This document shows positions 37,673 through 57,300 of a stretch of DNA of 64,000 nt, piece by piece. Source of the DNA: Helicostylum pulchrum (lineage: Eukaryota > Mucoromycota > Mucoromycetes > Mucorales > Mucoraceae). The notes beneath the pieces are model-generated. The model was not told the DNA's origin. It searched no databases and worked only from the letters and a program-made list of their open reading frames with translations. The position numbers were made by a program, and so were the translations under genes. The DNA lies in the NCBI GenBank assembly GCA_025677825.1, contig JAIXMO010000040.1, forward strand, positions 124,001 to 188,000. Direction: 5' to 3'. Each line of letters begins with the position of its first letter. Positions within the stretch are counted from its first letter, which is position 1.

Positions 37673-40600
37673 ATGACAAAATCCAATCCTCCGCCTTTGA
37701 GAAGTTCCTCTAGAAGAGTAGCCCAGAAAGTATGTTAAATACAGATCACGTTCGACATAAAGCGCTAACCCTTTTTTTTATTAAACAACAGAATAAAGTA
37801 TCGGTTATAAAAGCTCCCAAAAAGCAATTAGCTTTGGCTCGCAAAACAAAGAAAAATGTCGTCAATATTCTCGACTTTAAAAAAAAATCTGTAAGTGCAA
37901 AAGTAATCGTAAATGCATAATTATTAATTTACATTGTAAAAGGGAAAAACAATGTACCTTGTCGAACGCGATGGAACTGGTTTAAATGCCTGGGAAACTG
38001 AAGATATGATTGAAAGCCTTGATGTCCTTACTAACTATCAGCACAAAGTCCAAACTGAATCAGGATACTCTATCAATGAGAATTCGGAAGGGCAGCCCCA
38101 AGTTTCTGAACACTCAAGGCCATCTCGTGCTTCAAAGACTCGCGCAGTCATTGCATTAAAGCAATCTGATTATGTAGAAGATGAATATGTTAGTGATGAT
38201 AACAAAATCAATCGAAAATCAGTCAGAACAAATAGTGGTACAAAGAAACCCGCCAATAAAAAATCTGGAGGAAGAAAGACGAAAGCGGAAGTTCTTGCTG
38301 ATATTCAACATGCCGAGAGATTGGATAGACAAAGGCTTCGAAGCGAATTGAACCCTGAAGATATTACTCAAGGTGTAAATCACTTTTACGGAAAGAATTG
38401 TTGTCTTCAATGTGCTGCAAATACCTACAGAGATAAACTTGAAAGTAATGATTTGAATGGACTGAAGGCTGCTTTGAAAGATAAGGACATCCCCACCTAT
38501 TCTTACGAGGATACGCCCAATGGTCTTAACTTTATTCAGTATGCTATTGTACTTCAACGAGAAGAATTCGCCGAAACTCTTGAAGAGCACAACAAAACAG
38601 CAAATATATCTCTTTACCCTGTTGTTCCTTCAAAGTATACTGTATATGATGGTGGAAACACTGGAAGAAACAGAGGACTTGGAGAATATCAAAACAGACA
38701 ATTCAGGTATAAAAAAAAAGAGAATGAAAAGATAATTTAGCATTACGATCTTAATATTAAATTATATCATATAGACGAGTTGAAGAATCCAGAGGAAATC
38801 GTGTTGGTAACTCTGCTTTTTACAAAGCTGCGGACTCGAAAAGAACTTTTATGAATGTAGAGGATCAAATCAGAGCAAGCAAGTTACGCTCTTTTATGCC
38901 TTATATATCCAAGGACACTTTCCGTGATGAAAACGTTATTGCAAACTACCTGGTTCATTTCAGTAATGGCTCCCATGACGTTTATTATGCTGCCTCCTCT
39001 GGAAGTAGACGTTTAGCTAAAAGTTTATTGGAGCATGTGAATCTTACAGGAAGATCAACTTTTAATCTTCTTCACGAAGAGGTTTTAAAGGTATACATAT
39101 TTGTAACGATTATTTTTTTTAAAAAAAAGTACTAACTTATATTTAGTTTGAAAATGGTCAATCGTTAACAAGCTACAGGAAAACTCAGATTTTGAAAATG
39201 GCATCTGATGCATATAATGTTACACCATATCATTTCTCCGCTATTAATCCTAGTGCAACCTATCTTAGCGAACTTTATGAGGCACTTGATCCCGCTGAAA
39301 GATTACAAACTGATCTTTATGGCAGATCGGTTGCATTTTTTGCTGCAGCTAGTGAAACCTCGGCCTGTTTAGAGTTTCTTGAATCAAAAGCCTTCAATTT
39401 TTCTCTTGTTGACAAGTACAAAATGAGCCCCCTTATGCAAGCTGCTCGATTTGGAAGAAGCCATAACGTTGAAATATTAATCAAGCATCTTAGAGGTGGA
39501 CCTGAAGTAACCGAAACGTCTCCCTTTGTTTTCCAAACCTTGGTTCGTAACAGAAGAACCGCTTTACACTATGCTGCCTTCTTTGGACATGCCGAGACCT
39601 GTAGAGTATTAATTAAGCACAATGCGCCTGTTGAATGTATTGAAAATCTTGACAAGCAAACTCCTTTATTGTATGCTGCTAAAAATGGTAATACCGAATG
39701 TGTACGTGTTTTAATCGAAGAAGGAAAAGCCAACCCAGAAAAAGGAGACAAGTTTTCAAGAACTGCTTTACATTATGCATGTATGAATGGTCATACCGAG
39801 GTTGCCAAGTATCTTTTGTCTCAAGGTGTAGATTCAAATTCTTATGATAGCTCTCATAATGCCCCTATTCATTTTGCTGCTGCTTTTGGTTACATCAAGA
39901 TTGTACATTTGCTCATTGAGTATGGATCTACTGACCCGTCAGCATGCAATGTCTGGAGAAGTACCCCGTGTTCTGTTGCAAATATGAAAGGTCATATTGG
40001 CATTGTCAAGTATCTTCTCGAATTATCCCACACTTCAATTGATGTCAACTTTAAAGATCAAGATGGCTGCATTATGCTACAAAATTGTCTTAATGAATCT
40101 GTTGCAACCCCGCTCGAAAAGAAGACGAATATTGAAAAGATTACTTTGTTACTTGCTATGAAAGCCAATATCAACAGCATCAATCTTGAAGGTATAGACT
40201 TACATTAAAATGAATGATTGATGTTGCATACTAATATTAATCATACATATATTATAGGAGATACCTCTTTACATACTTTAGTTTCAAACACTTCTTTCGC
40301 TAAATTACAACCTAAGGGTTGGGAAACTTTTTATACTGTCCCTAGTAGATATCATACCTACGAATTTATTGAGTATGACGACATTGAAGGTGTCGAATAT
40401 CAAAAAGTGCTTGCAAACCTTCTGATAGAACATGGCGCTGACTTGGATATCCAGAACTTTCGAAAAGAAACACCCTTAGCAACGGCTATGAGACTTGGTA
40501 ATCATCATTTAATAACACTACTTATTGAAGCGGGTGCAAAATTCTGGGTCGATACTGATGAAAAAGGCAATAACTTCTTTCATTACTTTGGTAATTTTAT

Positions 40601-43600
40601 CGCTTTCATCAACGGCCTTCAGCCTCATTACGATTTGGACATCATGATTAAAGAAAGATTATTGGATATTGCCAAGGAAATGTGGGCTGCAGTTGTATCT
40701 TATTCAGCTTCCCATATTGCTGAAGTTCGAAAGATTGTAAGTACTATATACGTTATACTAGGCTATAGGATTACTAATTATTTTTTTATAGATTAATGTT
40801 CGTAATAATGAAGGTTACACGCCTTTGATTTACGGTGTTAAGTCTGCAGTTGAAAAACAAAGAGAAGCAATGATTCGCGAAAAGAAAATGATTCTTTCAG
40901 TTGTTTTCAACAGCTCTACTAACAACCATGGAACATTCATCAGTTACAACAGCCATCAATCTAATGATAACAAGGGATATCCTAGCAAGATGTTTGAAAA
41001 GGCAAGTTTACCATTGAGCGTTAACTTGGCCTTTAATTTTGACTTGTGGGTAAGTACAAAATCTATCGCAAAATACACATTAGCAGTACTAAATGCATTT
41101 CTTTTAGGTTTCAATTATGCGCGAAATTGTAACCCTTTTTAAGCCTAATATGAGTGAATACGTTACCTTACCAATGAAATTTAAGAAGGATAAACCTGAT
41201 GCAAAGAAAGCCAACTACCCTGCTTTAACCGGATATACAGCTCTTCATATTGGTAATTATACAATATTCGAAAACTAAGTTTATATATTTTTTACAAAAA
41301 AAAAAACTCACATATTAATTTAGCTGCTCAAACTCAATGCACTACCTTGATTGACTTTTTATTGGAAAATGGAAGCAAACCTAACGTATGTGTTAAGCTT
41401 AATACTGAAATTCTTTCTGGGGATACTCCTATGACAATTGCCTATCACCATAAGAAGGATCTCTATCAGGAATTACCCAACAAGTCTTTAGAGTGTACCG
41501 AAGTAGTCAAGAAAAAGTTTGTATTGACTAAACCGAATTTTAAAGATACTCTTTACAAAACCGTCAAATCCTTTATTCGATTCAAGGCATGTCCGTATAT
41601 TACAAACAGTTCTGGAACTTCCGTATTGTTAAAAGCTTCAGCTAGTATGGATTCTAGAAATTTAGTTCAAATTTGTAATGTCAAACCTTCTAAAGGTGGA
41701 GATGTCAATACCAAGAACGACAAGGAAGAAACTTCGTTGATGATGGCTGTGAACTCACTGGAGACCGTAATTAAATTGAAGGAAAAGAAGCCCAATGTTG
41801 AAATTATCAAGTATCTTTTAAAAGCTAATGCCGATCCAAATATTCGTTATGAAAATGGTGATACCGTATTGATGAAGATTATCAAAACTATGGATATTAC
41901 CTTACTTGAAACTTTATTGGAAAATGCTGTTATCGCTATTGATCACAACATAAAGAACAAAAGTAAGTTTTTTTTTTAAAAAAAAAATAGGCTACATATT
42001 CTAAGTTTCTTCTCTCTTTTTTTTTTATAGATCAAGAAAATGCATTGATAGTAGCCTGCCAATTGAAGGAACCAAAAATTGCCCTGTTCTATCTTTCGTA
42101 CTTGAAACGTTCCCTTGGATTATGCGAAATCAATACTTTCGACTATGAAAAACATTCTGCTTTGTCCTATGCTTGCAGAAACGCCGAACTTCAAGTTGTT
42201 GAAGGATTACTTTCACTAAATGCCAATCCCAACTTTACTATGCCTCAACATGTACCACTTAACGAAGCTGTCTCTGGTCAAAATATTGATGTTATCGACT
42301 TGTTGTTGAAACAAGGCGCATCCGTAAACGAAAAGAACGAGCCTTATGGAAATACTGCCCTTCATACTGCTATCATTGATGGAAAACATCGTATTGTTAA
42401 ACTTTTATTGGAAAACGGTGCTGATTTCAACATTCCCAATACTCGCTTACAATCACCTATGCATTTAGCTGTTCAAAACACGAAGAGCCAAACCAACCGA
42501 TCCTTCCGTATTGAGCGTCTTTTAATGAAAGCTGGTGCAGATATAAATGCCCTTGATTTCTTTGGTAAATACTTACATAGCAGGTTATAGAAATTATGTA
42601 ACCGATTATTAACTATATATATATTATTTTAATAATAGGCCGTACTCCTCTTCATTATGTATTTGTCGAAAGCAATTTGATTCCGATTACTCGTAATACC
42701 TCCATTATTTCTAAAAAGGTTAAACAAGTAGCTAAAGAAATCAAGACTGAAAAGGATAGAATGAAAGCCCTAAACAGTTTCTCTACCAAATTTGGCCTTG
42801 GTGAATTTTCTGAAGATAGTAAGCATCTTAATGCCTGGATGAAAGCAGCCAAAAAGATACAATTAGATAAATCCGAACTTGAAGAACAAAAAGAAAATAT
42901 GGAGCGTGAAAGGAAAGATGAAGAAGATATACTTATTTTGGATGAAGAAAGAGATTTGTTGAAAGTATATTGTGATTATAGTTGGGAAAATGTGAATCCT
43001 ATAAGATTCGATCCTATTGATATTCTCAAGTATTTGTCCGATTCTGAAGATCTGCATTATGACATAAAAGACGAATTTGGAAGAACTCCACTTCATTATG
43101 CTGCTTGTGTAGGTGCTTTTAGTTGTACTTCATTACTCGTTGAGAAAAATGTAGACATCAATGCAATTGATTCGGATAAGGTAAGAATTTGTAAAATAAA
43201 GAGACTTATAATAAGTACATTAACACATTTATTACTTATTATAGAACGGCCCTGTTCAGTTAGCTCTCCGAAACAATCATGTCGATTATTCAGTTATGCT
43301 TTGTAATTTCGGAGCAACTGTAAACAGTGATATTGTTCTGAAAGATGGTGAATCTACGTCTACATTTGGCTTTAGTTTATCGAAATCGCTTATAAATGTA
43401 GCCTATTTAATTATGGATAAAGGTGCAATTCCTATTGGTAAGAAATACTAGATAAAATTATATTAAAAAGTGTTTATATAACTAACTTTAAAATACTATA
43501 TAGAATCCATTAGAGAGTCATTAAAAAATGGTAAAATCAATTCTGTTTTTTTTTATATACTATCATTTACTAACCACTTCATATAACTAATAGGTAAATT

Positions 43601-43967
43601 CCATATGGCTGAAATCTTACTGCATTCTATCGAAGACGAAAATCTTTCCGTTACTTTACCTATTGTAAATCAAAATGTCTGGCACGTGTTATCCGATTTC
43701 AAGCCATTCAGTAACGAAGTCTGGGAAGAATACGTACAAGAATTTATTGAAAAACTCTTGCCACTCAACCTTTCTATTTTCCAAGATAGTTATGGTAGAA
43801 CTCCTATTCATTACGCTGCCAAACATGGTCAAACTGTTTTACTTCGCCGTCTTCTTTCTATGCCAAATGTTTTAATTAACATTATTGACCAGGATGGATA
43901 TTCGGAACTTGATTACGCTGTCGAGAGTGAAATCTTTGAAAGTGTCCAGGTGAATTTTTTTTTTTTG

Positions 43968-44002
<35 letters not shown>

Positions 44003-47000
44003 TTGATAAATGCTAATTATGATATATATTTTTAGGAACTGTTAAATGCAAGAGCTAGTGTAACAGGCATTGTAAAAAATCAAAAGCCATCTCTCGTTTT
44101 GAAATCTGTACAATCAAATCACTATAAAATCACTGAACTTTTGTTGAAACATGGTGCACCCTCTGATGAAGACAGCAGATACGGTCGTGTTAATTCTGTC
44201 ATGGTTGCATGTCAAAACAAGAATTTGGAGATGTTGAATCTTTTGGTCTCTCACAACGCCGATTTAAATACACCTAGTCATGTAGAACGCAGAGACGACT
44301 TTGGAAAGAAGTACACTGTGCTTCTCTATCCTATCTTTGCAGCCTCATATTTCAACTCTACTCTATTAGAAGTAATGTTAAAAGCCGGTGCAAATCCAAA
44401 TGTGTATGGTCCAGACTCAAAGCCAGAGTACGGTAGATCTTGTTTTATGTACAATGTTTCTATCGAAACAACTCAAAACCAACAGGTAATGCAATCTTTT
44501 GACATATTTATTAGCTGTTTGCATTTTTTTAATCTTTTTTTTTTTTTAATAGACGCTTCTTGAATATAATGTTGACTTAAGCGCCAAGGACCCAAAGACA
44601 ACCAGAACTATTTTCTATCAATTCTTTTTTGGGAAGATGAAATATGGCCAAGACTTTAAAGATACATCTAATATTGATTACGATCGCTTGAAATTTGATG
44701 ATGTTATCTATGAAAAAATGATTCAAAAGTTCAAACCAGATGTCAACTTAGTTGATGAAGTAACAGGCATGACTCCATTAGAACTCGCAATTCGTGAAAA
44801 GAACCTAATTATTGTAGAGGTATAATGACCTAAAATAATACTCTTTTTTTTTTCTTACGTCTTAACTAACCATCAACTCGTAGCGTTTATTATCATTGGG
44901 TGCCAGCATCAATACTGAAAGTTGCAACAAGGTCAACAACTTATTATCTTCGAGTGCTTTAAACCCAACTTGTCAAAAGATTCCTGCTATCATTCATGCA
45001 ATTATCCAAAACAATTTGAAATTGCTTCAATTTATTTTTGAACATGCTCAAGATGAAATGAATTGGATTTGGCAAGATAAAGAAAATCGTAACGTTTTAT
45101 CATTTATCGCTGGAAGTGTCGGTGGTATTTCGCATGAAAGCGTTGGTATTTTAGAGTTTATTGCTGAAAAAATGAAGCCCAAGATTTTCAAGAGACTCTT
45201 ACAAATGCGTGATATACATGGTAATTATTTAAATTGTATTTTATTTATTGTACTATTTTTTAATATATATGTATATATCTTTAGGACTTACACCGACCGA
45301 GTATGCTTATCAAAGACATAACAAGAATCTTTATAACACCATCATTCGTCTCGAGCCTACAGTCACGATTACTCAACCTCTTCAAAATCCTCATGAAGAG
45401 GAAGATTCTCCTATGGACGTTGACTACATCTCCACTGAATCCATTGACGAAGACGCCAGAATTGAAAGAGAAATCCTTCAAAAAGAAAAGGACGTTGAAA
45501 AGACTAAAGACAAGGCATTTTCTACCAAAACCGATGATGGTACTGTTAAAGTAGATTCTTATTCTAAGTTGGGCAAAGTAGGATATGTCATGTTGGATGA
45601 GAATAACAAGCCATATGATATTATGTTGATCAAGGTGGAACTTCGAGGATGGGGAGTGTATACAGATACATCGTAAGTATATAAAAATTTGTCATCCTAT
45701 ACAATTGCAACATCTAAGCATATAATATTTACATTTAGGTTCTACAAGATGAGTATTATTCATAACAAGGTTTTAAACCTCAATATTCTCTGGACACGTT
45801 GGGGCAACTATGGCGATGAAGGTCAACACCAAAAGACTCCGTTTTTACATCTCGAAGAAGCCATTACAGAATTCAAATCCATTTTTAAAGCCAAGACTGC
45901 CAACACCTGGGAGGATCGTTTAACATCCTTTGTACAAAAGCAAGGTCGATATGGACTTCTCAAGATTTCTCAACACCCACGAGACGTAATTGTTAAAGAC
46001 TTTGACTTTTTAAAGTCCTCTATTCCTGCTCAGTTACCTCAACAAGTTACAAACGTGATGAAACTTATCTGTAATCATACTTATCTTACAAGAGTGTATG
46101 ATGATTCTCATGTTGATATGCCTCTTGGTCAAGTACCCCAATCTACTATTGAATCAGCTCGTAAAATTCTTTTTGATGTACAAAAAATGAATCTTAAGCT
46201 TCAAGAATGCAGAAATCAATACTCCAATAAAGTAAAAGTGATGGAATCTAGAAGTAAGTAATACATAAAATTAAATCCTTTTGGTGACTCTCTAACCCAC
46301 TCTCTCTCTTAATTTAGCATGGGAGTTTAAAATTGCTCAAAAATGTGTCGACTATGCTCGCTTGTTACCTCGTAACGACGATCGAAACCAACCATTCAGA
46401 AACCTTCTTGAAAACTACAACAACAACTTCAAGGACGAATTATCACGTATGGAAGATTTAAGCTATGTTGGATTTGCAGCTAATGTTATCTTGGCCGCCA
46501 AACATCACCTCAATACCATCAACCCATTACAATACGCTTACCACGCATTAAACTGCTCTTTAAGACCCATTGAACCTGAATCTACTGAATACCAACTTAT
46601 CCATAACTATATGCAATCTACAACAACTGGAACATACGAACTTGTAAATTTGTTGGCTGTCAACCGTGCTGATGAAGAACAAAGGTTCCGTCCATTTGAA
46701 CAAGAGGCCAATCGAAAGCTTTTATGGCATGGATCACGCATTGGTAACTTTATGGGTATTTTAAAGCAAGGGCTTCGAGTTAGTCCGCGTACATCTACTT
46801 CAAATGTAAGTTATATATAAATATACGTAAGAGAGAGAGAGAGAGAGATTACTAACTTTATTTTATTTTACAGGGTGCAATGCTTGGTAGTGGTGTTTAC
46901 TTTGGTGATACTTTTGCAAAATCATTAAACTACTCTACTGAAAACTACGGTACATACCAATCTGCCTACCGCCTCTTATTTGTATGTGAAGTTGCATTAG

Positions 47001-48004
47001 GATCCAAGACCGCTATCTACGACCAAAGCAACTACAATTTCACAACCGATAATTTAGATTCCATGAAGGGAGAAGGAAGTAGTACACCAGATCCTGACAA
47101 TGCCGTCTATGACCGCAACGGTGTATGTATACCTATGGGCCCTTGTATCCCCTTTACCCGTACTGCTGGCGAAAACGGCCAAATCAACTCAACACCTTTC
47201 CTTAACCACAACGAGTTTGCAGTCTACGATCAAAACCGAGTCAAAATTCGATACTTGCTCATTATTCGAGACTCTACCAGTTGCTTTTTATGTTCCAAAC
47301 CTGAAGAAAGAAATTTAAAGCCTTTGCAAGAACGTAACTTCAAGAGTTTTAATTATATTCGATTTAATGAATTCGAACGAGAAGTAATTGAATCATATAT
47401 GACTTATCAAAACCTTTCTCCTCAAGATATCTTTGATCAAGACTTGAACGAGTTTATAGAATCCGGAATTTACAGTAAGTTTTTTTTTTTTTTTGAAAAT
47501 TATTGGTACAAGACAAAAACTAATTTTTTTTTTTTTTTTGCATAAATAGAGAAAAAATGGGATACACCTCTTGATTTATGTTACGACAGTAAAGTATGTC
47601 GTAAATGCGCAAATATCATTGTGGCTATTATGTTAGAAAAGAGAGTAACCAGTAAAGTTGCTGATATTCCTGGTAAGTTTCTATTATTTTATTTTACTTT
47701 TTAAATTCTTATTCTAATATATTATATTATAGAATTCCTTAAAAGTAAACCTCAATGTATGTACGGTAAAGAATGTCGTACGCAATCAACGATGAGCCAT
47801 ATCAAAAAGTATCAACATTGGCTTAAAGAAGACGTCTCTGGTGAATGCCAGTTCTCTATTAAAAAAGTAGGACTCTCTGAATCTGATATGGAGACTGAAG
47901 AAGAAGCAGAACATACGGGAGATGAAACCGAAGAAGAAGACGGTGATTCTGATGACCATTCAGAGAGTGGTTCTGATGATTATATGGAAACCGATGAAGA
48001 GTAA
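37673..48004 (+). CDS. Giant ankyrin-WGR-PARP protein with PBZ-like C-terminal finger
   Basis: About 23 exons join in frame to 2,964 codons, including a 27-nt exon at 43504-43530. The N-terminus is basic (NKVSVIKAPKKQLALARKTK), suggesting nuclear or DNA contact. Residues about 250-2150 hold many ankyrin repeats, for example RTALHYAAFFGHAETCRVLI and NTALHTAIIDGKHRIVKLLL. A WGR domain follows at about 2260-2365 (VELRGWGVYTD..LWTRWGNYGDEG), then a helical PARP regulatory domain. The catalytic domain has the complete triad: His in LLWHGSR (about 2608), Tyr in SGVYFGD (2642) and Glu in NHNEFAVYD (2747). It therefore should make poly(ADP-ribose) from NAD+. Near 2883, KPQCMYGKECRTQ...HIKKYQH resembles a poly(ADP-ribose)-binding PBZ finger, followed by an acidic tail. 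WGR points to activation by DNA breaks. Ankyrin plus WGR plus PARP is also known from a nematode tankyrase-like PARP. BRCT domains usual in fungal PARPs are not seen. Confidence 0.9.
43967..44000. repeat. (TA)n microsatellite in a PARP intron
   Basis: A run of TA dinucleotides inside the intron 43950-44035. It is likely polymorphic. Confidence 0.8.
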
Positions 48005-48409: not shown

Positions 48410-50022
48410 ATGTTTCCTCGACAATTGACTCGATCTTTGCAAGCCAATTCTCGTTCGTATTAACCTTACTAAACCAAAAGCGAAAACAAAAACAAAAACT
48501 AACCAAAGTTTTTCTTTTATACAGGTGCTTTATTACAAGCATATGCTATCACAGCTCGTTCATTGCATACCTCTAAAGGTTGCTTAAACAAAGTATCTAA
48601 AGTCAACGGTAAAAGAAAAATTCGCCAACTTCAAAAGTTCCAGAATATTAAACCAATTTTTTTTTATTTTTTATAGATGTTTCAAAGACCAACGAACACG
48701 ACCACCGTGCTATCGGTAAAGCACAATCATTATTTATGACACACGCCGTCAGTCCCGGTTCAATTTTTATGTTACCACACGGAACCCGTATTGTGCATAA
48801 GCTTCAAGAGTTTTTGAGATCCGAGTACGCACGATACGGATACCAAGAAGTAATGACACCTTTGATTTACAAAAAAGATCTTTGGGAGACCAGTGGTCAC
48901 TGGCAAAATTATAAAGACGATATGTTTATGGTACAAAGTGGACGAGACCAAAAGTGTTCTCATAATCATGGTGAAGTGATTGATACTGATGAAGGATTAT
49001 TTGGGTTAAAACCAATGAATTGTCCTGGCCATTGTTTAATTTTTGACAGCACACCCAAATCCTATCGTGATTTACCTATTCGTTTAGCTGACTTTAGTCC
49101 TCTCCACAGGTAAAGAAAAAAAAGATGTTTTTTTTTTGCTTATTTATTTATATAATTTTTATGCAGAAATGAAGCTTCAGGTGCACTTTCAGGATTAACA
49201 AGAGTGCGTCGATTCCATCAAGACGACGCCCACATCTTTTGTGCTGAAGACCACATTGCATCCGAAATCACATCGTGTCTTTCTTTTGTCGACCGTGTCT
49301 ACTCTGCATTCCAGTTCCCTAGCTACGACTTAACACTTTCTACCCGGCCTGAGACACAATATATGGGTAGTCTTGAAGAATGGACACACGCGGAATCATC
49401 TTTAACCAAAGCTTTAAATGCCACTGGTAGACCTTGGTCAATTAAAGAAGGTGATGGTGCATTTTACGGTCCCAAGATTGATATCATGGTCAAAGACTCT
49501 AGTGGAAAATCACATCAAACTGCCACTATCCAACTTGATTTCCAATTACCACAAAGATTTGGACTTAAATATGTAGATGAAAACGATGTAGAGCGCACAC
49601 CTGTGATTGTGCATAGAGCCATTTTAGGGTCTATTGAACGTATGATGGCTATTTTGATTGAACATACAGGAGGTAAATGGCCATTCTGGTTAAGTCCACG
49701 TCAAGGTGTAGTTATCCCCGTCTCTACACAGTTTGGAGAATACGCTCAAAAGGTAGCCAAGGAATTATCATTAGGAGAGAATGCAGAGACAACAATTAGA
49801 GAACAGTACTATGTAGACGTTGATAAATCACCTCGTGACAGATTAAACAAGATGATTCGTCAAGCACAACTTGATCAATACAACTTTATTTTTGTAGTTG
49901 GACAAAAGGAAATGGACCAAGGTACTGTTAATGTTAGAACCAGAAAGGGTGAAGTGCTAGGAGCAATGACTGTTGATGAAGTCCGTAAGATGTTTGGATC
50001 AATGGCATCTAAATTAGAATAA
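48410..50022 (+). CDS. Threonyl-tRNA synthetase, mitochondrial type
   Basis: Four exons (48410-48452, 48525-48608, 48677-49109, 49167-50022) give 471 residues. The enzyme charges tRNA-Thr with threonine. A matrix-targeting N-terminus (MFPRQLTRSLQANSR) leads directly to the class II catalytic core: MLPHGTRIVHKLQEFLRSEY (motif 1), KPMNCPGHCLIF, TRVRRFHQDDAHIF (motif 2), and VHRAILGSIERMMAILIE (motif 3). The anticodon-binding domain ends in MTVDEVRKMFG. The N-terminal TGS and editing domains of the cytosolic enzyme are absent, as in yeast Mst1, which supports the mitochondrial assignment. The first donor (GTTCGT) was chosen for frame and is weaker than a nearby GTATTA, so exon 1 could be slightly different. 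Confidence 0.92.
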
Positions 50023-53110: not shown

Positions 53111-54257
53111 TTACGTTTCAATGATAAATTGTGTACCATCTTGTTGAATTAAATGTAAATGTAATAATACGATTAAAATACTAGTTAAATTGTGTCTTTC
53201 ATCTTCTGCCCACGGAAACTCTTTTGATAATTCATCCACCGTAACTTTATCATCCAGTAGTATAAATTCAAGTACATTACCCATCGTCCTACCACTAATA
53301 TGATTAGCAAATACCAAGTAACATAAACTCTTTACTTGTTCAACTGCCATTTTTAATTTGCTATCATCTACTGTAATATTTTCGTTTTTCAACGCCTCTA
53401 GATACTCGATGCATTGCGATTCACACTGTGTTGTACTACCACTACCGATCCGACCCAATTGATTTAAAACGTTTTGGATTTTATCCAAATGTGTCTTATA
53501 CAACACCTTTAAGTCTATTATTATTGTTATTATTATTATTATTGTTTACCTCTTTGTGTGTGTGCGTGGTACCTGATTTTGTCTTTTTAACATTTGATAA
53601 TTGTTTTATTTCGCATTGTTTCATCTTTAAATCCGCTTCATCTTCTAATCGTGATAATTCTTGTATTAACTCATTACGTGTTTCTTCATACTCTATGTTC
53701 GATTGAACTTTATCCTTTCTCAATTCCGCATTTTTAGCTTTAATATTTGCAATATCCAAATTGACATTATGATTCTTTTCTTCTTCCACATGAACTAAAT
53801 ATTCTAATTGCTTTTTTTTACGTTCAATTTCTTCTCTTCTCGATGTACGTTGTCTGGTATCAAGAAACACGGGTTGTGTTTGTGGGCTTTGTTTTAAAGT
53901 ATGTACCAATTGAGTTTGTCTGTCTAAACTTTTTAATATATCTAATTCATCTTGTCCCAACTTGTGTAGTAAGCCATTCACTTTAGCAAGTAGCTTTTTA
54001 CAGTCAGGTAATAAAGTATGTGAAACCTCTAATCGCGCAATGGCTATATCTCTTTCAGTTACTAATTCATAAGGTGTTGTATATGTTGTCACTTGTGATT
54101 GTCGAAGCGATTCTTTATTGATTGTGTCTAATAATTGTAACATTGAATTAATTGAATTTAATGACTCAGAAAGGGTAACAATACACCCATTTAAATTCTC
54201 TTTTGTTGATAATGTTTTTGTCCAAGATTCAGTTAATTTTATTTTTTTACGCAACAT
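53111..54257 (-). CDS. Coiled-coil protein with C-terminal globular domain, unknown
   Basis: Two exons (54257-53550, 53494-53111) joined over a 55-nt intron give 363 residues. The intron reads through the (AAT)n run that would otherwise encode polyasparagine and then a stop. Residues about 1-230 are helical with long charged coiled coils (RREEIERKKKQLEYLVHVEE and NELIQELSRLEDEADLKM). The last about 90 residues (GNVLEFILLDDKVTVDELSK onward) look like a small winged-helix-like fold. That layout occurs in kinetochore and vesicle-tether subunits, but I cannot name the family. It starts only 67 bp after the stop of the sterol-transfer protein, on the same strand. Confidence 0.7.
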
Positions 54258-54324
54258 ATTTTGTGTGTGAAGAAAAATATTATTTTTTTTAAAAAAAAAA
54301 AAAAAGATATGCGTATAATTTTTT

Positions 54325-57300
54325 TTACGCGTCACGTTCTTTATTAACTACTTCACATACACTGACCATATTCTTTCCATTTAAGCACTTTAGTTTCTGA
54401 TCCGACAACCAATTCCAATACTCAATTTCCAATAGCTGATACTCTACTCTATTTAGTATTCTAAACGTGGATAGTAATTCGTACCGAATAGCACCTAGCC
54501 TTTCTCTTGAGTAACCTAATTCATCTGCCATATTTCGATGCAATTTATCAAACCAAGTGTACTTCCATTGTTGCGTAGTACCGTTGGCTCTAGCCTCTTG
54601 AAATAACCCATACACACTAGGATCGACATGACCCAACACAGCTCCTTTCTCTGTTACTTTATCCTGTATATCACGTAAATAAACCCCTCTCCAGACCATA
54701 CTTGTATCGTTTTCAGTTTGATGTAGAAGTGATTGGCATCGTCTTGATAGATACACTTGATGTATCATAAACATCATATAGACCACTCCAAACACCAAGA
54801 AAACGATCGACTGAATATATCCGCTCTTCTTCTTTTTTTTATTATCTTGTACATTATCTTTCGGGGGCACCGGTAACCCATCTGACTTTTTGGCCGCTTG
54901 TTTTATAGGTTGATCGATACTTGTATCCTTTACAATTTCATCTTGTATTACAGGTACCAACGCCTCGATTGTCTCTATCATCCCTTTTGTCGCAGCCTTA
55001 TTCACAATTCCCTTTACAAATATACTCTTGATCCATTTCACACCCATGGAACACGCCAACCTACAACTGGTAGGCGTCTCATACGTAATACAATACTTGA
55101 TACGAGGTATAAACGCATCCGCGTACGGTAAATTCGGCGTCCTTGTCGTCACTAGTATCACATAGCAGAGATACTCATTTTGGCACAATACCTGTTGCGT
55201 TTCAATCACTTGAGTTTCTTTTGCTTTTACCATAGGTGCATTGACCGGCATCACATAACTTACTACTCTTTCCATACATGATTCGTCATTTGGTTTCCAC
55301 TCTGTAAAACTCGGTGGTTCGTATTTTTTAACTTGGTTTAATTGTTTCCAAATCTCAGTATCGTACATTAATTGAAAGAGTTGTTTTGCAGTGATGGGTA
55401 ACACAAGTTCCGATTCGGTTTTATCTAAATGATCTGTGCAATCACATTGAACTCTTTCTTTGGGTTTCGTAATGTGATCAGGCCATGAAGGTGATGGTGA
55501 TACCGTACGTTCCGCAGGCTCCGCAGGTTTGGAAGAGGACGTTGATTTTCTTTTTTTCTTGGATGCGTTGTATACCGCAGTTAACGCACCTTGTGCTGGC
55601 GACCCTCTATGTATTGTGGGTGGTGTCACTGCTTCTTCTTCCTTTACAATAGAAATATTCTCGGTTTCTTCGCTTGAACTATTGGTAGATGAAGACACAG
55701 TTTGCATCGGTTGTTGTTGTGCCTGTACTGTAAGTGGTGTCACGGACGCATACAACGCACTGGATGTAGTAACATGACTGGTAGGCGTCTTTGATTTTTT
55801 GTAAGTTACCTGTCGAACCAAATCGAACAAAGATTGAATATCCACTTTATCATAATTTTCAATCACTGCTTTTAACCTTTCCGATATAAGTTCTGCAGGT
55901 TCTAACCATAGTCCAAAGAAAAAAGGTCGCGTTGATTTTATTTCAATTTCGAGCAACATGTTGTTTGAAAATGCTGTCGTTTCTAATCGAATTGATTTTA
56001 TCTTTTTTAAAGGGATGACAATCTATATCAAATGTGAGTAAAGATATATATATAGTCTTAATATATAAAATAAAATTTACCATGTTGACACAAGTCATTA
56101 ACATACAACTATAGAACCATATACTCTTTTGTGTCACATAAACAGTACCGCTATACCCATAACAAACATGTGGATCTACACGCTCATCATGTGGTTTCCG
56201 ATACAACGAAGCAGAAAAATCTATTGGAGATTACATAAATAAATAAAAGCTACCCTCATCACCATAAATAATAAACTTACATTCAATCACAATTTCATCT
56301 TCAGGAACATTAGCAAACAGCTTTCGTAACTCACGTTGGCCTGCTACTAAATCATCGGTATAATGTGAGAGTGTCGGCGTCGGCGTATCCATTTCCAATT
56401 TATTTGGCCATACGATCAAGGACGCTGCACAAGACGACGACGCCGATGCCGACTTTTGGCTAGGACTGTTTGATAAGTCCTCTTCTGATGAATTAGAGAG
56501 CGCGTTGATACCTGTACTAAGCCATGGTACACCCCAAGAGTACAATTGATTTGAAACGGGGTTACTATCCTGCTGCATAGTGACCTGTGGTATATTATCT
56601 GTTGTGTTCTCTCCTTCTCGTATCAGCAGTGCTGTTAGTGAAGAACTAGTGGTTGAAACAACTGGTGTTAATGAGCCTTCGCCATTTGGACTAGGTAAAG
56701 GAGAACTTGACATGGCGACTAAAGAAGGCGAAGACGAAACATTATTTACCATTAACGGAGATAAAAGTACTTGTGGTGAATTTAACACTGCCGGTGATGG
56801 ATCTTGATGCTGCATATTGTATTCGATCGATTTTAACCACTGTTGCATTTCTTCTTCGTTTTCAGCTTGTAAATAGTACGAACATTTAGGGTGGACTACT
56901 TCAAAGCAAAATCTTCGATCGCTACCAGTAGTTATACGAGTGACAGCCCTCTTTATGGATATTCGGTGGTCTAATGTAATACATCCCTTTTCTTTATTGA
57001 TTGTGGTTACTGTACATGTGCCAAACCATCCTTGTTGTAAAAAAAACCATTTTCGAGACCAAGGAGGTCGAGCCGATTTACCAGTGATCATAATCCTACT
57101 ACTTAAATAGCCTTGTTTATTTTCCAATTTTTTTGGTTGCGTTATATCGTCATCCTTTATCGCTGCTGTTGCTGCTGTTGCTGCTGTTGCTGCTGTTGCT
57201 GCTGTTGCTGCTGTTGCTGCTGTTGCTGTATCGTCTGAAGTTGTTGTAGTCGGAAATGAATATCGCTTTAAAGAACGATGTGGTTTAACTTGTTCAATAT

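Follow-up and report, generated by a model that had tools for sequence, protein, structure and literature searches.

The window analysed here is a 64,000-nucleotide stretch of the genome of Helicostylum pulchrum (Mucoromycota, Mucorales; assembly GCA_025677825.1, contig JAIXMO010000040.1, forward-strand positions 124,001 to 188,000), in which one very long gene encodes a poly(ADP-ribose) polymerase (PARP). It is the ankyrin-type Clade 1 PARP as it occurs in fungi, with a C-terminal tail of a type otherwise known from CHFR, an animal checkpoint protein. We interpret this tail as a module through which the enzyme would read its own product, poly(ADP-ribose) (PAR), in a feedback loop, and we place the probability of this reading at roughly 0.55. 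Judged by the retrieved sequences, the architecture is common to early-diverging fungi, the tail was gained once at the base of the fungal proteins, and the same proteins are without the arginine of the WGR domain.

A single predicted frame, spliced with GT-AG introns only, runs from the ATG at 37673 to the TAA at 48002–48004; the automatic exon model was corrected by hand, by frame and splice sites, at three places and at the donor of exon 4. An initial reading of the letters alone (the sequence-only reading) had proposed one gene with an ankyrin array, WGR, PARP regulatory and catalytic domains, a complete H-Y-E triad and a terminal Cys/His segment, and this is confirmed by frame, splicing, Pfam matches (the scan covered residues 1–920, a 698-aa piece and, in the middle of the protein, pieces of 539 and 629 aa) and alignment to PARP2. 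The triad corresponds to H2599, Y2633 and E2738 in that alignment, all 32 fungal rows of the column scan described below retain each of them, and the catalytic residues are intact. Together with its position in the tree, the ankyrin, WGR, PARP_reg and PARP matches place the protein among the ankyrin-type Clade 1 PARPs, a relation also found by full-length match. The nearest database protein is a partial record from Mucor saturninus, with 62% identity over the C-terminal part searched.

The CHFR-type tail and its distribution

PBZ fingers bind PAR, and a finger of this type, with the pattern C-x5-C-x7-H-x5-H, is encoded by the last exon (Table 1). The zf-CCHH profile (PF10283; cut-off 22.7 bits) recognises it with 27.5 bits in a 40-aa piece, 24.5 bits in a 134-aa piece and 23.9 bits in the 146-aa tail, and with 21.2 bits, just below the cut-off, in the 698-aa piece. 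When the protein was shuffled, the loose Cys/His pattern came up 3 times in 2000, and the stricter one that includes aromatic-Gly and the second aromatic not once in 20000; a chance motif is rejected by these shuffles and by conservation among orthologues. In the printed PBZ consensus, [K/R]xxCx[F/Y]GxxCxbbxxxxHxxx[F/Y]xH (PMC4030884), all fixed positions are matched save the two basic residues, which are T-Q both here and in CHFR. An earlier worry that the spacing differs by one residue from the usual finger falls away, since CHFR itself reads Cx5Cx7Hx5H and seven residues likewise separate the second Cys from the first His in the PMC4030884 consensus. The PBZ call of the sequence-only reading is thus supported by the profile on short pieces, by the two Cys and two His conserved in aligned orthologues, and by CHFR as the best solved relative.

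The same reading missed what surrounds the finger, as it missed the sharing of the architecture among early-diverging fungi and the loss of the WGR arginine. On profile and fold prediction, the finger forms just the last part of a larger unit, a CHFR-type cysteine-rich domain (CRD) plus PBZ, a tail that begins directly after the last catalytic strand. As a single sequence, the 146-aa tail scores 24.6 bits against zf-CRD, below the cut-off of 26.3, but a tail profile searched against the PDB has CHFR as its best solved relative (E 1.3e-12, positions 31–146 of 147), and the predicted fold of an orthologue's tail matches the CHFR CRD-PBZ. The tail alignment comprised 16 of the 19 complete-finger sequences then known (P0003, P0016 and P0019 were left out); P0019 breaks its invariant Gly and Glu and keeps the Cys and His. 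A model of an orthologue's catalytic domain plus tail (mean predicted local confidence, pLDDT, 74.5; predicted template-modelling score, pTM, 0.71) gave only PARP catalytic chains among the 50 matches listed.

Two protein searches yielded 90 distinct proteins, of which 32 carry fungal names and the remaining 58 are from animals, amoebae, an oomycete, Naegleria, algae and unnamed metagenome proteins; the fungal proteins P0002–P0022 are 2,153–3,492 aa long. The tail profile matches this gene and 31 of the 32 fungal proteins (15 of them inside the profile, 16 outside it) and none of the 58 others, and the sole fungal miss, P0034 from Rhizopus, lies on an 8.6 kb contig and ends before the catalytic domain. 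Across 32 fungal rows, that is, 31 database proteins and this gene, both CxxC pairs are found by pattern in 30 and the complete four-ligand finger in 27 (26 of the 31 database orthologues); four of the finger-less rows end earlier as annotated (P0006, P0008, P0012 and P0015) and the fifth, P0069, is a partial record. The C-terminus of P0008 resembles the last intron read through, so gene prediction may overlook the PBZ exon. Precomputed domain lists carry the PBZ label on only 1 of the 31 fungal orthologues. Of the 27 complete fingers, 22 retain the first aromatic, 26 the Gly and all 27 the second aromatic, and the loop is of seven residues in 15, eight in nine, and 6, 12 and 15 once each.

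Two of the orthologues belong to the Chytridiomycota and the Entomophthoromycota. On a tree of 78 rows (quick search, midpoint root, long branches; 13 of the 90 database proteins left out) the tail is one change, on a branch with an SH-like approximate likelihood-ratio (SH-aLRT) value of 99. A search for a donor among tail-bearing proteins of about 384–1221 aa, in which exact five-letter words were needed, gave 29 candidates, none significant, and none of these was a significant fungal CHFR with this domain. One tail-bearing orthologue, P0011, is from Phycomyces blakesleeanus, a species for which no PARP was reported in 2010 (PMC2964712).

The WGR arginine

In PARP1–3 the arginine of the WGR triad carries DNA-dependent activation. 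This mark of the DNA-break-dependent PARPs is absent here, the triad reading W-G-N. It is absent from 33 of 33 fungal rows, which have Ser (7), Ala (6), Pro, Gly or Asp (5 each) or, once each, Lys, Tyr, Glu, Thr and Asn, and present in 56 of the 58 other proteins; the two exceptions are P0050, with no WGR among its listed domains, and P0090, whose aligned stretch is without the WGR motif. A column scan of the WGR, helical and catalytic domains compared 32 fungal with 50 other rows and left out nine database rows, P0050 and P0090 among them. In 54 columns at least 90% of the other rows share one residue; of these, only the Arg column drops to 10% or less in fungi, and the triad Trp and Gly persist in all 32 fungal rows. 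Two further positions differ between the groups: at residue 2511 in the helical domain, 30 of the 32 fungal proteins have Tyr and most others Glu or Asp, and residue 2299 in the WGR is a fungus-specific Asn in 31 of 32.

Substitution of the arginine abolishes DNA-dependent activity in PARP1 (R591A), PARP2 (R140A) and PARP3 (R103A), and R140A and R103A leave DNA-independent activity unaffected (PMC4081085); as long as PARP1 is present, PARP2-R140A foci are still normal, through a route that depends on PAR (PMC9023293). With the arginine gone, activation through DNA breaks is therefore probably weaker or rewired in the fungal enzymes. At the position of PARP2 Y188, 23 of 32 fungal rows have Tyr and nine have Phe; Phe there removed PARP2 DNA-dependent activity, but it proves nothing alone because PARP1 itself has Phe. 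Our literature search on the WGR arginine concerned the human residue, and we do not claim novelty for its loss in fungi.

Proposed product feedback and competing explanations

We infer self-recruitment by product binding. The enzyme would make PAR on itself or on targets picked by its ankyrin array, the polymer would be bound by the enzyme's own PBZ and by those of neighbouring copies, and this binding would hold or recruit more enzyme, a local positive feedback. With DNA-break activation probably reduced or rerouted, PAR capture would take part of the recruiting role that in animals is split between DNA sensing and CHFR-type readers. Enzymes that are both writer and reader are how some histone marks spread; a PARP built in this way would give a clean test of PAR spreading, and the missing WGR arginine makes DNA dependence directly testable. 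The fusion also fits the reported interaction in trans of the CHFR PBZ with PARylated PARP1 (PMC4741567). A bolder and distinctly tentative version, to which we give rather less credence, is that the basal fungal PARP swapped its trigger, the DNA-coupling arginine being lost, a CHFR-type reader gained, and PAR instead of a DNA end serving to gather or activate the enzyme. If true, a single protein in these fungi would write PAR and also be its principal reader, and its mark would be self-spreading under the control of ankyrin-chosen targets and of ARH3- and MacroD-like erasers.

The genome (32.2 Mb, 168 contigs) was scanned exon by exon, so split domains can be missed. Within that scope, the only PARP catalytic matches are two exons of this gene, and it also holds the only WGR match and the only PBZ above the cut-off, the next match standing at 15.9 bits, below it. 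Candidate erasers are a MacroD-like macrodomain piece with MACROD2 as best match (L025, G000:C158:613000-619500) and an ADP-ribosylhydrolase piece that matches MJ1187 and ARH3 equally (both 1.8e-5). PARG and HPF1 gave no match, but the control genomes were equally silent, so their absence from the genome is not shown; for Mucor and Rhizopus, PMC4245714 reports no obvious PARG. About 2.1 kb from the macrodomain piece, on the same strand, lies an FHA match in a frame that is forkhead-like by eye; an APLF-like gene at this locus was not counted, the FHA frame seemingly being a separate forkhead-type gene. No RING patterns were found near the FHA loci, in a search limited by introns and short stretches.

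Several points weigh against feedback through the tail. The triad Trp is retained in 32 of 32 rows and the Y188 position is Tyr or a PARP1-like Phe, so DNA may continue to bind the fungal enzyme and to act on it. Some lineages may have lost PAR binding, since five of the 27 complete fingers are without the first aromatic, one of these also without the Gly, and the loop is long in two. Tail gain and arginine loss each happened once, within one group, which puts their link beyond statistical test. PAR-dependent recruitment of PARP2 relies on another enzyme, PARP1 (PMC9023293), and a second PARP was not found in the exon-by-exon scan. Finally, the zf-CRD genome scan gave one sub-cut-off match elsewhere (E 0.163, stops inside) and missed this gene's own intron-split tail, which makes the description of this protein as the only reader weak.

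The main rival is that product capture acts as a brake, the PBZ binding the growing chain in cis and limiting its length or holding the automodified enzyme inactive. Because the last catalytic strand leads straight into the tail, chain and finger would be close, and the same anatomy suits a brake or an amplifier; however, the sign of the feedback is not separable from sequence and the orthologue model, at a pTM of 0.71, gives no readable relative orientation of the tail, and we consider the brake unlikely. Slightly less probable again is a scaffold role, the CRD-PBZ serving chiefly to stabilise the catalytic domain or to bind a protein partner, with PAR reading of secondary importance or partly lost: both Cys pairs persist in 30 of 32 fungal rows, yet the first PBZ aromatic is missing from five of 27 complete fingers. 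The full retention of the second aromatic (27 of 27) and the near-full retention of Gly (26 of 27) argue otherwise, as does the nature of the finger-less rows, four early annotated ends and one partial record.

HPF1 contacts the catalytic C-terminal end in PARP1 and PARP2, and the tail, which extends from that end, might be a built-in accessory that occupies the HPF1 docking place and alters acceptor choice, the acidic end beyond the finger perhaps masking it until PAR competes it off. Asp/Glu make up at least 0.33 of the residues after the finger in 19 of the 27 complete sequences, but eight have no acidic end, and the negative HPF1 scan is matched by silence in the control genomes; we regard this explanation as improbable. 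A mis-spliced exon or a chance motif we hold to be very nearly negligible. In its favour, P0006, P0008, P0012 and P0015 end before the finger as annotated and the exon is known here from genomic sequence, whereas the last intron is canonical (60 bases), read-through of it meets a stop within 12 codons, and 26 of 31 database orthologues have the finger; a mis-annotated last exon is disfavoured on the last two grounds.

Gene features and related systems

Table 1 Features of the ankyrin-type PARP gene, in window coordinates.
Feature	Position	Strand	Details	Basis
Whole gene	37673..48004	+	22 exons, 2955 aa; ankyrin-WGR-helical domain (HD)-PARP-CRD-PBZ	Orthologues with same domain order in database
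Ankyrin-repeat region	39147..45220 (approximate bounds)	+	Exons 5–16	Pfam ankyrin families in all three pieces scanned
WGR	45662..45919	+	Residues 2287–2350; intron 45673–45738 inside	Pfam 57.5 bits, cut-off 22
RWGNYG	45797..45814	+	WGR triad W-G-N, Asn at residue 2313	Triad reading
PARP regulatory (helical) domain	46031..46541	+	Residues 2388–2536	PARP_reg 51.5 bits, cut-off 26.8
PARP catalytic domain	46581..47263	+	Residues 2550–2754	Pfam PARP 157.6 bits, cut-off 26.7
CHFR-type cysteine-rich domain	47282..47632	+	CFLC (2761–2764) and CRKC (2841–2844)	Profile match, orthologue fold
PBZ finger CMYGKECRTQSTMSHIKKYQH	47756..47818	+	Residues 2874–2894, last exon	zf-CCHH over cut-off in 40, 134 and 146 aa pieces
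Acidic C-terminal end after PBZ	47882..48001	+		43% Asp/Glu in 61 residues after finger

The acidic end might serve as a site of modification or, resembling PAR, mask the finger. Near the N-terminus, a CCLQC cluster (38399–38413, residues 205–209) coincides with no zinc family in the Pfam scan of residues 1–920. Elsewhere in the window, 49204–50022 encodes class II tRNA synthetase core and anticodon-binding domains, and two minus-strand frames, 53496–54335 (Spc19, DASH complex) and 54325–55959 (VASt lipid-transfer domain), overlap by 11 bases.

Fungal ankyrin-WGR-PARPs have been known as Clade 1A since 2010 (PMC2964712), a class overlooked in the initial statement that fungal PARPs usually have BRCT-WGR-PARP. 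PMC4245714 reports PBZ as not found in Fungi, against which stand the 26 fungal orthologues, out of 31, that carry the finger here; one fungal PBZ, in a Mortierella DNA ligase K, was described after that report (PMC6264785). Literature searches, with subscription journals mostly outside them, found no report of a CHFR-type tail on fungal PARPs among the papers listed.

PARPs with PBZ are described from Dictyostelium, Entamoeba, Capsaspora and lancelet (PMC4245714) and, by that report, share with the fungal enzyme a catalytic domain and PBZ in one protein; neither of the two retrieved ankyrin PARPs from lancelet bears a tail. Tankyrases share the ankyrin array ahead of the PARP catalytic domain, but the fungal enzyme has a WGR and a regulatory domain and no SAM match in the scanned Pfam pieces, and identification as a tankyrase is rejected. 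With CHFR (PDB 2xoc, 2xoy) it shares the second half of the cysteine-rich domain and the PBZ, which agree in order and spacing and in predicted fold, whereas it matches the CHFR 503–660 stretch only, joined to a PARP, and has no FHA or RING family match in the scanned pieces, which sets it apart from the CHFR ubiquitin ligase. With Clade 1A and Clade 1-ank (Dictyostelium ADPRT3, C. elegans PME-5) it shares ankyrin, WGR, PARP regulatory and catalytic domains. Within these ankyrin-type Clade 1 PARPs, most of the non-fungal proteins retrieved end a few residues past the catalytic domain and keep the WGR arginine, whereas the fungal proteins carry the CRD-PBZ tail and lack that arginine.
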